26,308 nt of DNA from Betaproteobacteria bacterium UBA2293 (GTDB lineage Bacteria; Pseudomonadota; Gammaproteobacteria; Burkholderiales; Rhodocyclaceae). Below the pieces are notes generated by a model. It was not told the origin of the DNA. It saw only the letters and a program-made list of their open reading frames with translations, and did no database searches. The DNA is taken from the NCBI GenBank assembly GCA_002345845.1, contig DDWF01000292.1, positions 1 through 26,308 of the forward strand. Direction: 5' to 3'. The position numbers and the translations under genes were made by a program. Positions 19,418 through 26,308 of the stretch are shown in pieces (position 1 is the first letter of the stretch; every line of letters begins with the position of its first letter).

Positions 19418-19434
19418 TGCACAGATATGGTGCG
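19418..19434 (+). promoter_or_regulatory. Candidate NtrC-binding dyad
   Basis: TGCACAGATATGGTGCG matches the NtrC consensus TGCAC-N7-GTGCA in nine of ten conserved positions with the correct 17-bp length. Its centre is about 107 bp upstream of the start point inferred for the sigma54 promoter at 19506-19522, a normal distance for an enhancer site. A second GTGCA half-site lies at 19469-19473. This is a pattern match only. Confidence 0.6.
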
Positions 19435-19505: not shown

Positions 19506-19522
19506 CTGGTTCGGCTTTTGCT
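19506..19522 (+). promoter_or_regulatory. Candidate sigma54 (RpoN) promoter for the amidoligase/transglutaminase genes
   Basis: CTGGTTCGGCTTTTGCT matches the sigma54 consensus YTGGCACGRNNNTTGCW at 15 of 17 positions. The invariant GG (19508-19509) and GC (19520-19521) are exactly 10 nt apart. Transcription would begin near 19533, giving a leader of about 25 nt that contains the GGAG (19547-19550) and the GTG start at 19558. No comparably good sigma70 promoter was found in the 155-bp gap. Confidence 0.65.
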
Positions 19523-19557: not shown

Positions 19558-22500
19558 GTGTCCATTCACGTCGCACTGAATCACATCACCCATTATTCCT
19601 ACGACCGGCTGATCAACCTCGGGCCGCAAGTCGTGCGCCTGCGTCCTTGTCCGCATTCGCGGACGCGCATCCTCTCCTATTCGCTGAAGGTCGGTCCGGA
19701 AAAGCATTTCATCAACTGGCAGCAGGACCCGCAGGGCAATTATCTGGCCCGTCTGGTTTTCCCGGAGAAGACACGCGAGTTCCGTGTCGAGGTGGACATG
19801 GTGGCCGAGATGTCGGTGATCAATCCTTTCGACTTCTTCCTCGAGCCGCATGCGGAGAAGATTCCGTTCGCCTACGAGGCCGGTGAACGCCACGAACTGG
19901 CGCCTTACCTTTACAAGGTCAATTACGGCCCGCTGTTCGACAAGTACGTCGCTGCCATTTCGCGCGAACCGCTGCGCAGCGTCGATTTCCTGGTGGCCGT
20001 GAACGCCCAGTTGCAGCGCGACATCAGCTACACCATCCGCATGGAACCCGGTGTTCAGACGCCGGAGGAAACGCTGAGCAAACGCTCCGGTTCCTGCCGC
20101 GACTCGGCCTGGTTGCTGGTGCAGGTCCTGCGCCACCTTGGCCTGGCCGCCCGCTTTGTCTCCGGTTACCTGATCCAGCTCACCGCCGACGTCAAGTCGC
20201 TGGACGGCCCGTCCGGTCCGGAAGCTGACTTCACCGATCTGCATGCGTGGACCGAGGTCTATCTGCCGGGTGCCGGCTGGATCGGTCTCGATCCGACCTC
20301 CGGCCTCTTCGCCGGCGAAGGTCACATCCCGCTTGCCTGCACGCCCGAGCCGTCATCGGCGGCACCGATCAGCGGCGGCATCGACGAGTGCGAAACCGAG
20401 TTCAGCCACCACATGGGGGTCAGCCGGATCTGGGAAGCGCCGCGCGTCACCAAGCCGTACACCGACGAGCAGTGGCTGGAGATCGAGAATCTCGGCCACC
20501 GCATCGACGAGACGCTGGGCCAGCTCGACGTTCGCCTGACCCAGGGCGGCGAACCCACTTTCGTCGCCGTCGATGATCCGGATGGCGCCGAATGGAATAC
20601 CGCCGCCCTCGGCCCGACCAAGCGCATCTTCGCCGCCGACCTGTTCCACCGCCTGCGCGAGAAATATGCGGCGAATGGCCTGATGCACTTCGGCCAAGGC
20701 AAGTGGTACCCCGGCGAGCAACTCCCGCGCTGGTCGCTGAACTGCTTCTGGCGCAAGGATGGCGAGCCGATCTGGAATTCGCCGGCGCTGTACGCCAACG
20801 AAAGCGTCAATTACGGCGTCACCGCCGAGCAGGCTGGCGACTTCCTCAAGCGTGTCGCCGTGCGCCTCGGGGTCACCGACGAATATGTCTTCCCGGCATT
20901 CGAGGACGTCTATTACTACATGTGGCGCGAGCGCCGCCTGCCGGGCAACGTCGATCCCTTCGACTCGCGCGTTGACGATGCCCTGGAGCGCGAACGCCTG
21001 ATGAAGGTGTTCACCCAGGGCATGACTCATACCGTCGGCCATACCCTGCCGATCATGAAGAATGTCTGGGGCCAGTGGCAGACCGGCCCGTGGTTCCTGC
21101 GTGCCGAACGCTGCTACCTGTTCCCCGGCGATTCGGCCATGGGCTATCGCCTGCCGATCGACTCGCAACCGTGGACGGCGCAGAGCGACTACCCCTACGT
21201 CAACCCGCCGGATGCCGAGACGGCCACCGATCCGCTGGCCAGCTATGCTGCGCTGCGGGCCCGCGTCAGTGCCGAGCGCGCCGCCGCCGAACCCCGCCTG
21301 CAGGACCGTCGCAGCACTTTTGCCGACGCCCACGGCAAGGGCGGCCCGGATGGCAAGGGCCATCCGTGGGACAAACCGACCGACACCCGTCCCGGCTTCA
21401 AGGAATCGGCCGGCTGGATCACCCGCCTGGCGATGTGTGCCGAACCGCGCGACGGCAAGCTCTACATCTTCATGCCGCCGACCGAGAAGCTCGACGACTA
21501 CCTGGAAATCGTCGCTGCCGTTGAAGCGACCGCTGAGGAAATGCGCCTGCCGGTGATCATGGAAGGCTATGAGCCACCGTCCGATCCGCGCCTGACGCAT
21601 TTCCGCGTCACCCCCGACCCTGGTGTCATTGAAGTCAACATCCATCCGGCCAAGAGCTGGGACCAACTGGTCGACCAGACCACGCATCTCTATGAATCGG
21701 CGCACATCTCGCGTCTGACCACCGAGAAATTCATGGTCGATGGTCGCCATACCGGCACCGGTGGCGGCAACCACTTCGTCCTCGGTGGCGCGACGCCGAA
21801 CGATTCGCCCTTCCTTCGCCGGCCGGACCTGCTGAAGAGCCTGATCGCCTACTGGCACAATCATCCCAGCCTGTCCTACCTGTTCTCCGGCCTGTTTATC
21901 GGCCCGACCAGTCAGGCGCCGCGCGTCGATGAAGCCCGTAACGACTCGCTCTACGAACTGGAAATCGCCTTTGCCCAGATTCCGCAACCGGGTGGCCATG
22001 TGCCGCCGTGGCTGATCGACCGCATCCTGCGCAATCTGCTCACCGATGTCACCGGCAACACGCACCGTTCCGAGTTCTGCATCGACAAGCTGTACTCGCC
22101 GGATGGCCCGACCGGCCGCCTCGGCCTGCTCGAACTGCGTGCCTTCGAAATGCCGCCGCACGCCCGCATGTCGCTGGCCCAGCAACTACTGTTGCGGGCG
22201 ATGATTGCCCGTTTCTGGGAACAGCCCTACCAGCCGGCGCGCCTGGCGCGCTGGGGCACCGAGCTGCATGATCGCTTCATGTTGCCGTTCTACGCCGAGC
22301 AGGATTTCAAGGATGTCATGGAGGAAATGGCCGAGGCCGGCTTCCCGTTCAAGGCTGAATGGTTTGCCCCGCACTTCGAGTTCCGCTTCCCGAAATATGG
22401 CGATTTCGCCGTCAAGGGCATGGAGTTCGAACTGCGCCACGCCCTCGAGCCCTGGCATGTCATGGGCGAGGAGGGGAGTGCCGGAACCACCGTGCGCTAC

Positions 22501-22926
22501 GTCGACTCCTCGGTCGAGCGCGTCCAGGTCAAGGTCAAGGGCATGGCGCCCGATCGCTATGTGCTGACCTGTAACGGGGTGCCGGTGCCGCTGCAGAATA
22601 CCGGCACCAACGGCGAGTTCGTCGCTGGCGTCCGTTACCGTGCCTGGCAACCGGAATCCTGTCTGCATCCGACCATCGGCGTCCATGCGCCGCTGGTCTT
22701 CGACATTGTCGATACCTGGATGCAGCGCTCGCTGGGCGGCTGTCAGTACCATGTGGCGCATCCGGGCGGGCGCAGTTTCGACACCTTCCCGGTCAATGCC
22801 TTCGAAGCCGAGAGCCGCCGTCTGGCGCGCTTCTTCCGCTTCGGCCATACGCCGGGCAGGATGCAGGCAGGGCAGCCCGAGATCAGCGCCGAACACCCGT
22901 TTACGCTAGACTTGCGCCGTTTCTAA
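19558..22926 (+). CDS. Transglutaminase-like domain fused to DUF2126 (circularly permuted glutamine-synthetase-like ligase)
   Basis: This 1122-residue protein is a two-part fusion. Residues 1-110 or so are the bacterial transglutaminase N-terminal domain ([20 protein letters not shown]). The papain-like core follows, with Cys180 (SGSCRDSAW), His229 (DLHAWTEVY) and Asp245 (GLDPTSGL) as a complete catalytic triad. From about 320 to the end is DUF2126/COG4196: QGGEPTF (329-335), [14 protein letters not shown] (379-392), EVNIHP (692-697) and [12 protein letters not shown] (733-744). From memory, this domain was proposed to be a circularly permuted glutamine-synthetase-like amidoligase; EVNIHP and GGGNHF would then be metal/ATP loops (inference). 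The GTG start is supported by GGAG 7 nt upstream and by the family N-terminus. It is the first gene of the set; a stem-loop follows the stop. Reaction and substrate are unknown. Confidence 0.9.
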
Positions 22927-22939
22927 CCCCCAGACAGCG

Positions 22940-22963
22940 GGTCGCGGCCATCCGGCCGCGACC
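22940..22963 (+). other. Strong intercistronic stem-loop without T-run
   Basis: GGTCGCGGCC (22940-22949) and GGCCGCGACC (22954-22963) form a perfect 10-bp GC-rich stem with an ATCC tetraloop, in the 79-nt gap between the two large amidoligase genes. No T-run follows, so it is unlikely to be a simple intrinsic terminator. It may stabilise mRNA ends or set relative expression (inference). Confidence 0.7.
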
Positions 22964-23005
22964 GTTGGCCATCACTGGCCTGATCCGCGTTGTTTCTCAG
23001 GCTGA

Positions 23006-25525
23006 ATGGCCCGCACACTCCTCGCAATCTATCCGCATAACGCCCGCCGTTACGACGAAATGTTGACCGCCGACGGGGCCGTGCGCGCCCACTGGCGGCA
23101 ATTCTTCGGGCATCTCGACGCGGTGGCGCCGGAAGAGATGCGCCGTCGGCTCGACTTCGTCGACCGGCGCATCCAGGAAAACGGCGTCACCTACAACGTC
23201 TACGCTGACGCCAGTGGATCCGACCGGCCGTGGGCGCTCGATCCGTTACCGCTGATCATCCCGCCCGACGAATGGGCCGAACTGGCTTCTGCTGTCGCCC
23301 AGCGGGCGATGCTGCTCAATGCCATCCTGGCGGACCTCTACGGCGAGCAGAAGCTGCTCGCCGAAGGCCTGCTGCCACCGGCGCTGGTCTATGGCCAGCA
23401 TGGTTATCTGTGGCCCTGCCAGGGCATCAAGCCGCCGGGTGGTGTCTGGCTGCACAACTATGCGGTCGATCTGGCGCGTTCGCCGAATGGCCGCTGGTGG
23501 GTCATCGCCGACCGTACTCAGGCGCCTTCCGGAGCCGGCTATGCGCTGGAGAACCGGCTGGTCGTCTCGCGCGTTTTCCCGGAAATGTTCCGCGACCTGC
23601 ATGTCCAGCATCTGGCCGATTTCTTTCGCGACCAGCTGGAGGGCCTGGCCGCCTATGCCCCGGTCGATGGCGACGAGCCGCCGCACATCGTCCTGCTGAC
23701 TCCCGGGCCGTACAACGAAACCTATTTCGAGCACGCCTACCTGGCGCGCTACCTCGGTTTCCCGCTGGTCGAGGGCCAGGATCTGACGGTGCGCGGCGAC
23801 AGCGTCTTCCTGAAGACCCTGCGTGGCCTCAAGCGGGTGCATGTGATCCTGCGTCGCCAGGATGACGATTATTGCGATCCGCTCGAACTGCGCGGCGATT
23901 CGGCGCTTGGCATCCCCGGTTTGCTCAATGTCGCCCGTGCCGGCCGCGTCGTCATCGCCAATGCGCTGGGCAGCGGCCTGCTCGGCTCCGGCGCCCTGAT
24001 GGGCTTCCTGCCCGCCATCTGCCGCCGGCTGCTCGGCGAGAAGCTGGCCATGCCTTCGGTTGCCACCTGGTGGTGCGGCGAAAAACCAGCGCTCGATTTC
24101 GTCAAGGAAAATTTCGACGACCTGGTGATCAAGCCGGCCTATCCGACGCAGCGCATGGAGCCGGTGTTCGGCTACGAGCTGGAAGGTGAGGCGCGCGCCG
24201 AAATGTTGCGCCGCATCGAAGCTCGGCCACATGCCTATGTCGCCCAGGAGATGGTCGAACTGTCGCAGGCGCCCACCTGGAGCCGCGCCCACGAGCGCCG
24301 CCTGCTTGCCCGGCCGGTCGGCCTGCGCGCCTACGCGGTGGCCAGCGGCGACGGTTACTCGGTGATGCCGGGCGGCCTGGCGCGCGTCGCCACCGGTGCC
24401 AATGCCCGCATCATCTCCATGCAGCGTGGCGGTTCCTCGAAGGATGCCTGGGTGCTGACCAACGGCCCGGTCAGCGAATTTACCCTGCTCAAGCCATCGG
24501 TCGGCGTGCGCGACCTGGTGCGGGCCGGGGCCAACCTGACTTCGCGGGTGGTCGAGAACCTGTTCTGGTTTGGCCGCTACTCCGAACGTTTCGATGACAG
24601 CGCCCGCGTGCTGCGCGTCGCCCTGGCGCGCCTGGTCGAGGCCGGCGGCGCCAAGACGCCGGCGGTTGCCTCATCTATGGAACTGGCTGAGCTGCTGCGT
24701 ATTCTGCCGCGGCCGGAAGAGGATGGCGAGATCGGGGAAGGCAGCGAGCACGCACTGCTTGAGGCGATTTACGACCCGGAGCAGCCGGGCAGCCTGGCCG
24801 GCACCATCCGCAACCTGATGTGGTCGGCAACGCATGTCCGCGAACGGCTGTCGCTCGACCACTGGCATTCGCTGAATCACCTGCAACGCGAGCAGCAGGC
24901 GGCGCACAGAATGCATCCGACACTGACCGAGGCAATTGCCTTCCTCGATCGCGTGCTCGGCATCTCCTCCTCGCTGACCGGTTTCGCCATGGACAACATG
25001 ACTCGCGATGACGGCTGGCGTTTCCTGTTCATCGGCCGTCGCCTGGAGCGTCTGACCTTCCTGGCACAGAGCATTGCCGGCTTCCTGCGCATGGAATCGG
25101 CGCGGGCGCCGGGCTGCCTGGAATGGTTGCTCGAACTGGCCGACTCGATCATCACCTATCGTTCGCGCTACTCGCGCCTGCCGGAGATGCTGCCGGTGCT
25201 CGACCTGCTGGTGTTCGACGACAGCAATCCGCACGGCGTCATCTTCCAGGCCGGCGTGCTCGCCCGCTATCTCGAGCGCATGGCCAAGGAACTGGGCGAA
25301 CGCTTCGACGGCAACCTCGAGCAGGCGCTGGCCAATCTGCGTGACTTCGATCTGGAAACGCTGGAGGACGTGCAGTTTGTGCCCGGGCGCGACCAGGCGG
25401 CCGGCGAAGATCTGGCCGCCCGCCTCGATGCCCTGGTCCTGGCAGGTAATCAGCTGTCCGACTGGCTCGGCATGCGCTACTTCACCCACGTCGGCGATGT
25501 CAGCCGGCAGACCATGGCCTTGTGA
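23006..25525 (+). CDS. Circularly permuted ATP-grasp fused to an alpha-E domain
   Basis: The 839-residue protein joins two units that are often separate genes. Residues 1 to about 500 are the circularly permuted type 2 ATP-grasp (COG2308): RRYDEM near the N-terminus, YGQHGYLWPCQG (129-140), YNETYFEHAYLARYLG (236-251), GGLARV (456-461) and QRGGSSKDAWVL (473-484). Residues from about 510 to the end are the all-helical alpha-E domain (COG2307), starting SRVVENLFWFGRYSER (513-528). ATP-grasp enzymes activate a carboxylate as acyl-phosphate and ligate it to an amine, so a peptide or amide ligase is likely. The alpha-E function is unknown. The ATG at 23006 has only a weak AGG upstream. The next gene starts 2 nt after the stop. 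The substrate is not known. Confidence 0.92.
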   Translation: MARTLLAIYPHNARRYDEMLTADGAVRAHWRQFFGHLDAVAPEEMRRRLDFVDRRIQENGVTYNVYADASGSDRPWALDPLPLIIPPDEWAELASAVAQRAMLLNAILADLYGEQKLLAEGLLPPALVYGQHGYLWPCQGIKPPGGVWLHNYAVDLARSPNGRWWVIADRTQAPSGAGYALENRLVVSRVFPEMFRDLHVQHLADFFRDQLEGLAAYAPVDGDEPPHIVLLTPGPYNETYFEHAYLARYLGFPLVEGQDLTVRGDSVFLKTLRGLKRVHVILRRQDDDYCDPLELRGDSALGIPGLLNVARAGRVVIANALGSGLLGSGALMGFLPAICRRLLGEKLAMPSVATWWCGEKPALDFVKENFDDLVIKPAYPTQRMEPVFGYELEGEARAEMLRRIEARPHAYVAQEMVELSQAPTWSRAHERRLLARPVGLRAYAVASGDGYSVMPGGLARVATGANARIISMQRGGSSKDAWVLTNGPVSEFTLLKPSVGVRDLVRAGANLTSRVVENLFWFGRYSERFDDSARVLRVALARLVEAGGAKTPAVASSMELAELLRILPRPEEDGEIGEGSEHALLEAIYDPEQPGSLAGTIRNLMWSATHVRERLSLDHWHSLNHLQREQQAAHRMHPTLTEAIAFLDRVLGISSSLTGFAMDNMTRDDGWRFLFIGRRLERLTFLAQSIAGFLRMESARAPGCLEWLLELADSIITYRSRYSRLPEMLPVLDLLVFDDSNPHGVIFQAGVLARYLERMAKELGERFDGNLEQALANLRDFDLETLEDVQFVPGRDQAAGEDLAARLDALVLAGNQLSDWLGMRYFTHVGDVSRQTMAL

Positions 25526-25527
25526 CG

Positions 25528-26308
25528 ATGAGCAGCCCCGTCCGCTACCGTGTGCTGCACGAGACCCGTTACGACTACGGCAGTCCGGTGTCGCTGTCGC
25601 AGCAGCAGTTGCACCTGTCGCCGCGTATTCTCGACTGCCAGCAGATCGAGGAGCAGCGCATCGAGGTCACGCCGCCGCCGTCCTGGAGACGCGACGGGCA
25701 GGATGCCTTCGGCAATCCGGTCAGCTGGGTCTTCTTCAATGCGCCGCACCAGACGCTGTTGCTGCGCTCGGTAATGACCGTCGCCGTCCTGCCCCGTCTG
25801 CCGTCGGCCGAAGACATAACCGACTCGCTGCCCTGGGAGGAGGTGCGCGACCGTCTCGCCTACGATTCCTCGGAGCCGGAAGCGGCCGACCTGGCAGCCA
25901 CCCGCTTCCTGTTCGAAAGCCCGCATGTGCGCATCAAGCACGAATTGGCAGCCTATGCCGCCGACTGCTTCGCCCCGGAGACGCCGATCCTGGTCGGCGC
26001 CCAGGCGCTGATGGCGAAAATCTTCCGCGAATTTACCTTCGATCCGGAGGCGACCACGGTGTCGACGCCGGTTCTTGAGGTGCTGGAAAACAAGCGCGGC
26101 GTCTGCCAGGATTTCGCCCACCTGATGATCGCCTGCCTGCGCGCCCTCGGCCTGGCCGCCCGCTACGTCAGCGGCTACCTGCTGACCCGGCCGCCACCTG
26201 GCAAGCCGCGCCTGGTCGGAGCAGACGCCTCGCATGCCTGGGTCGCCGTCTATGCCCCGGGCAGTGCCGGCGACTGGGTTGATTTCGACCCGACCAACAA
26301 CCTGCTGC
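25528..26308 (+). CDS. Second transglutaminase-like protein (3' end outside window)
   Basis: This is a stand-alone transglutaminase-like cysteine peptidase or amidase whose first 260 residues are visible before the window ends. The N-terminal beta-sandwich domain is recognisable (YRVLHETRYDYGSPVSLSQQQLHLSPR). The catalytic triad is complete: Cys193 (RGVCQDFAH), His236 (ASHAWVAVY) and Asp254 (DFDPTNN). It begins 2 nt after the stop of the ATP-grasp/alpha-E gene, so the two are surely co-transcribed and probably coupled. It resembles the N-terminal part of the protein at 19558-22926 (shared GLAAR-Y/F-VSGYL core) but differs around the Cys. It could trim, transfer or hydrolyse the amide or peptide made by the two ligases (inference). 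Confidence 0.92.
   Translation, partial: MSSPVRYRVLHETRYDYGSPVSLSQQQLHLSPRILDCQQIEEQRIEVTPPPSWRRDGQDAFGNPVSWVFFNAPHQTLLLRSVMTVAVLPRLPSAEDITDSLPWEEVRDRLAYDSSEPEAADLAATRFLFESPHVRIKHELAAYAADCFAPETPILVGAQALMAKIFREFTFDPEATTVSTPVLEVLENKRGVCQDFAHLMIACLRALGLAARYVSGYLLTRPPPGKPRLVGADASHAWVAVYAPGSAGDWVDFDPTNNLL

Follow-up and report, generated by a model that had tools for sequence, protein, structure and literature searches.

Closest Described Systems and the Locus under Study

Amidoligase systems combining circularly permuted ATP-grasp, alpha-E, and transglutaminase proteins with DUF2126, which resembles glutamine synthetase (GS), were reportedly proposed by Iyer et al. in 2009, and we know of no established substrate for them. 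A locus of this kind closes the stretch analyzed in this work, i.e., 26,308 nucleotides of contig DDWF01000292.1 from Betaproteobacteria bacterium UBA2293 (hereafter, the window), where it embeds three open reading frames (ORF1, ORF2, and ORF3). Domains and linkage are those reported for the Iyer-type systems; the window adds putative NtrC/sigma-54 sites preceding its DUF2126-type operon, and the ATP/Mg determinants are missing from its ATP-grasp half. We suggest, with confidence barely above even, that the locus represents half of an amide-bond pathway used in nitrogen starvation. Systems of this kind are already known; what is new is the regulatory and pseudo-enzyme evidence. The NtrC/sigma-54 sites, a second operon with an intact ATP-grasp protein, and published nitrogen-limitation data go beyond the initial annotation of this DNA. 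The three genes were confirmed in the order ORF1, ORF2, ORF3, and the features on which the argument is based are as follows:

19419..19433, + strand: perfect match to the NtrC-type enhancer palindrome GCAC-N7-GTGC
19507..19522, + strand: candidate sigma-54 -24/-12 promoter element TGGTTCGGCTTTTGCT, with two mismatches to TGGCACGN4TTGCW
19558..22926, + strand: ORF1, GTG start, 1122 residues; transglutaminase (residues 1-275) and DUF2126 (about 295-1041)
23006..25525, + strand: ORF2, 839 residues; circularly permuted ATP-grasp (82-462) and Alpha-E (511-826)
25522..26308, + strand: ORF3, second transglutaminase, with the reading frame still open at the window end

Two other systems share part of this gene content. 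The Anbu operon (Pseudomonas putida PP_2685-2688, Yersinia bercovieri) shares the ATP-grasp, alpha-E, and transglutaminase genes and, in P. putida, is induced under nitrogen limitation. In the window operon, in contrast, no Anbu was seen, DUF2126 is added, and the ATP-grasp protein is a degenerate fused paralogue. The window ends in ORF3, its near twin (locus L141) goes on with an HI0933-like flavoprotein gene, and the Anbu-type gene of the twin genome lies in a second operon (L142), so that the locus was not assigned to the Anbu operons. RloABC of Pseudomonas aeruginosa likewise has an ATP-grasp and a transglutaminase-fold protein in one operon; however, RloB is described as an inactive transglutaminase with seven transmembrane helices, and a retropepsin is also present (PMC12239564). 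Membership of this group was rejected as well, the Cys-His-Asp residues of ORF1 and ORF3 being invariant.

Candidate NtrC/Sigma-54 Promoter Upstream of ORF1

ORF1 hits were obtained in 105 loci, five of which were partial and were dropped; 98 out of the other 100 had 200 bp of upstream sequence, corresponding to 88 distinct sequences. In 84 of the 100 loci, a sigma-54 core begins between -54 and -49; among the 88 distinct upstreams, 75 contain it (shuffle mean 3.2). The palindrome, allowing at most one mismatch, occurs in 70 of them (shuffle mean 14.6), the two sites together in 68 (0.16), and a perfect palindrome together with the sigma-54 core in 27 (0.015). In many Azonexaceae relatives the palindrome is located near -139, with a drifting core and mostly retained arms. 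Both sites are harbored by 36 of the 53 sequences from L001-L044, L081-L110, and the window (mainly Rhodocyclales) and by 32 of the 35 from L045-L080 (mainly Pseudomonas), only one of the latter 35 having a perfect palindrome.

Moreover, a strict composite NtrC/sigma-54 pattern was searched for genome-wide, retrieving three hits in G001 (the genome of the near twin), three in G009, one in G025, and two in G030, with no control hits. The pattern precedes glnA in all four genomes and, in three of them, a gene of the Gcw_chp family that lies directly 5' of a P-II (glnK-type) gene (L195 = G001:C10, L193, and L194); it precedes the amidoligase operon in G001 and G009, while the operon was missed in G025 and G030. 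In G001, the nearest of the genomes compared, its three places are the amidoligase operon, glnA, and the gene 5' of the P-II gene. The operon has the sequence hallmarks, i.e., enhancer palindrome and -24/-12 promoter, of a predicted NtrC/sigma-54 regulon.

Published Nitrogen-Limitation Data

In a Burkholderia cenocepacia ntrC mutant, the genes I35_5080-5083 changed by -8.2, -9.4, -9.4, and -6.0, and the cluster is listed as a common target of sigma-54 and NtrC (PMC5491218). Its annotated order in strain H111 (DUF404/407, DUF403, transglutaminase, large transglutaminase) matches that of two Burkholderia relatives (ATPG_s, aE_s, a weakly matching transglutaminase, and transglutaminase-DUF2126). 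From the gene order in these two other species, we infer that I35_5083 encodes the transglutaminase-DUF2126 protein; the cluster, which is collinear in H111 and split into two separate operons in G001, looks orthologous to the window-type cluster, with NtrC-dependent expression.

Under nitrogen limitation, PP_2686-2688 of P. putida are induced 11 to 15-fold in the wild type, the corresponding range for a relA/spoT mutant being 17 to 37-fold; for PP_2685 (Anbu), the change is 1.1 to 4.8-fold (PMC7801951). This operon has Anbu and lacks DUF2126. Furthermore, Bact_transglu_N, DUF403, DUF404, and DUF407 are correlated with domains of urea metabolism in marine metagenomes (PMC3597751).

Domain Content and Catalytic Residues of ORF1 and ORF3

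The Pfam search matched Bact_transglu_N, Transglut_core, and DUF2126 (1346 bits; Pfam label, putative amidoligase) in ORF1, CP_ATPgrasp_2 (523 bits) and Alpha-E (218 bits) in ORF2, and Bact_transglu_N and Transglut_core in ORF3, with scores far exceeding the cut-off. Among the best 80 of at least 596 related loci, an ORF1 homologue lies 5' of ORF2 in 74 loci and an ORF3-type gene 3' of it in 79; at least three of the seven misses (L028, L031, and L068) are located at contig edges. Both the domain content predicted from the sequence and the assignment to the Iyer-type families, whose genes are linked in these loci, were thus borne out.

The transglutaminase triads C180/H229/D245 of ORF1 (alignment A1, 37 sequences) and C195/H238/D256 of ORF3 (alignment A3, 29 sequences; numbering of the twin L141) are invariant. 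The intact catalytic motifs of the initial annotation hold for these triads and fail for the ATP-grasp half of ORF2.

According to the AlphaFold2 model of ORF1, compared with the PDB, the DUF2126 half has a predicted GS fold. The GS metal sites are n1 (E131/E212/E220) and n2 (E129/H269/E357). According to motif mapping on alignment A1, the profile alignment between DUF2126 and GS being not significant, the n2-like residues E332, H739, and E859 are invariant, and only E692 represents n1, with T334 at the place of E131.

ORF2 as a Degenerate ATP-Grasp Protein

Five determinants were scored in the ATP-grasp half: E and N of the E-x-N motif, which we take to be Mg ligands, and the Gly-rich loop, the D of D-x-R, and the N of NSSQGG, presumably ATP/Mg determinants of ATP-grasp ligases. 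ORF2 lacks all of them (E168, N170, the GGYG loop, D439, and N471, in ORF2 numbering), which sets it apart from two of the closest described systems, Methylobacillus flagellatus 3n6x and the glutathione synthetases of eukaryotic type. The standalone ATP-grasp paralogues have five out of five in 27/27 sequences, whereas the fused ATP-grasp/alpha-E proteins have none in 25/32 and one in 7/32. Since the determinants are lost throughout the fused proteins, ORF2 looks like a conserved pseudo-ligase, or at least a predicted non-canonical one, and it was not counted among the active ATP-grasp ligases.

Loss of ATP- and metal-binding residues had been named in advance as an outcome contrary to the proposed system, and it does occur here; because of it, the earlier picture of two ligase folds plus two cysteine-peptidase-like enzymes overstates the active set. 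The fold of ORF2 resembles that of tripeptide-type ligases, i.e., glutathione, trypanothione, and glutathionylspermidine synthetases and the ligase Cp1B.

Second Operon and Distribution of the System

On a separate contig of G001 (L142), a standalone ATP-grasp and alpha-E pair is found together with an Anbu-type gene, preceded by a palindrome (-122) and a sigma-54 site (-54), each with one mismatch. Among the 14 testable loci of the standalone ATP-grasp gene (25 were dropped, their upstream being too short), 13 have the sigma-54 site and all 14 the palindrome, 11 of them perfect. About 3 kb 5' of this gene in G001 lies a retropepsin-type aspartic protease gene (gag-asp_proteas, L142:3078-3752), which recalls RloA. 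In genome G015, a UreG-like (cobW/HypB/UreG) gene (L114:55-726) lies in convergent orientation to the Anbu-type gene that belongs to the standalone operon.

Fused alpha-E was found in 35 of 60 relative genomes, all of them with DUF2126; 33 of these 35 also have standalone alpha-E (the exceptions are G002 and G027), and six DUF2126 genomes had no fused match. Of 199 sampled Pseudomonadota genomes, 60 encode DUF2126, and all 60 are among the 115 that have Alpha-E (hypergeometric 5.6e-19, which is no clean probability because the sampled genomes are related). In 18 distant DUF2126 loci, the fused ATP-grasp/alpha-E gene occurs in 17, the ORF3-type gene in 18, and the standalone pair within the same stretch in 12.

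Gene Layout and Neighbouring Genes

ORF3 may start at GTG 25522 or ATG 25528; the reported distance of 2 nt from ORF2 is right for the latter, whereas the former gives a 4-nt overlap with ORF2. Between ORF1 and ORF2, one further feature was read directly:

22940..22963, no strand: GC-rich perfect inverted repeat with 10-bp arms

This hairpin perhaps allows differential expression inside the operon. GC-rich inverted repeats, judged by eye, also occur in the corresponding gap of many relatives.

Complex I (nuo) genes and a Nudix gene lie 5' of the locus. The host type, according to ORF2, is Dechloromonas/Azonexus-like, the best named relatives being 86% identical to ORF2. The near twin L141 shows 96-99% identity by segment; its ORF3 counterpart has 322 residues, and the HI0933-like flavoprotein gene (L141:5126-6337, minus strand) shares 1 nt with the ORF3 stop. 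The ORF cluster including this family was found in 11 related loci, all with an ORF2 identity of at least 82%. Near the amidoligase genes, zinc-ribbon and Peptidase_Mx (putative metallopeptidase) genes occur in two lineages (L037:13573-14775 and L152:2192-3310), and in one near relative a class-V aminotransferase gene (L001:5198-6397) lies between standalone alpha-E and transglutaminase-DUF2126.

Weighing of the Explanations

Several observations weigh against a nitrogen-starvation pathway. Shared descent and near-identical species inflate the promoter-site counts, against which the drift of the palindrome core between mostly retained arms can be set. Both sites precede ORF1 in only one of the 18 distant Pseudomonadota loci (L152), so that this control is not universal, and of the 27 genomes with both urease and the standalone alpha-E gene, only 6 have the two within 15 kb of each other. 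The DUF2126-to-GS residue mapping is based on motifs, and for this organism the proposal as a whole is drawn from sequence. Moreover, in a P. putida rpoN mutant PP_2686-2688 are still induced 14 to 20-fold, no less strongly than in the wild type (PMC7801951), which weighs against their sigma-54 dependence and makes our confidence slightly lower; the urt (urea-transporter) genes in the same table likewise keep their induction, and therefore the rpoN strain or conditions may be unusual.

An alternative is protein tagging, reported as a proposal in PMC6376114 and PMC5666114, in which ligases would tag proteins with a peptide or an amino acid, and the tag would then be removed, or the protein degraded, by Anbu or the transglutaminases, in a proteasome-like cycle. 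In L142 and L114, an Anbu-type gene comes after the standalone ATP-grasp and alpha-E genes, which agrees with this proposal. However, the window operon shows no Anbu as far as the window runs, with the flavoprotein gene after ORF3 in the twin, and the Y. bercovieri Anbu study reports no peptidase activity and no specific complex with the operon proteins; no candidate tag was seen either, no systematic tag search having been made, and we regard tagging as unlikely. The tripeptide-ligase resemblance of ORF2 and the lack of nitrogen-control sites in most distant loci would suit a dedicated small-peptide or secondary-metabolite biosynthesis (make and trim, as in the initial annotation) with incidental nitrogen control, but in a recurrent-neighbour search no flanking family came up in more than three of the 18 distant loci, the occurrence of DUF2126 is wide for a special metabolite, and fused ORF2 is devoid of ligase determinants, which leaves this explanation rather improbable. 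It is very doubtful, given the split between fused and standalone sequences, that ORF2 has kept ATP-dependent ligase activity through a remodelled active site.

Proposed Pathway and Its Meaning

In the nitrogen-starvation amide-bond pathway that we favor, phosphorylated NtrC would bind the palindrome 19419-19433 when nitrogen is short and activate sigma-54 RNA polymerase at 19507-19522, the operon being transcribed alongside glnA and the glnK-type operon. Within this operon, the ligase would likely be DUF2126, with its GS fold, which would use ATP to activate a carboxylate and then couple it to an amine; the amide bonds so formed would be cleaved or transferred by the two transglutaminase-fold Cys-His-Asp enzymes. 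ORF2, which has probably lost the usual mode of ATP binding, may be a partner of the DUF2126 protein in a structural or a regulatory role. The second operon, with similar promoter sites, would supply the full-signature ATP-grasp paralogue and standalone alpha-E, joined by Anbu in some cases, as found in relatives. The most likely purpose would be nitrogen recovery or rerouting via peptide, isopeptide, or glutamyl-type amides, for which the gamma-glutamylamine pathways offer an analogy.

A bolder, tentative proposal, to which we give little credence at present, is a hitherto unrecognised nitrogen-assimilation route in which a GS-fold-transglutaminase fusion, induced with glnA and having a conserved pseudo-ATP-grasp/alpha-E subunit as its gate, would form amide bonds and cleave them again to recover the nitrogen of peptides or amines. 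The system is widespread among the sampled Pseudomonadota genomes. The promoter element that the operon shares with glnA and the glnK-type operon makes nitrogen starvation the condition to examine, and the split between full-signature and degenerate ATP-grasp proteins tells which protein to assay as a ligase; together, regulation and split render a long-standing question directly testable.
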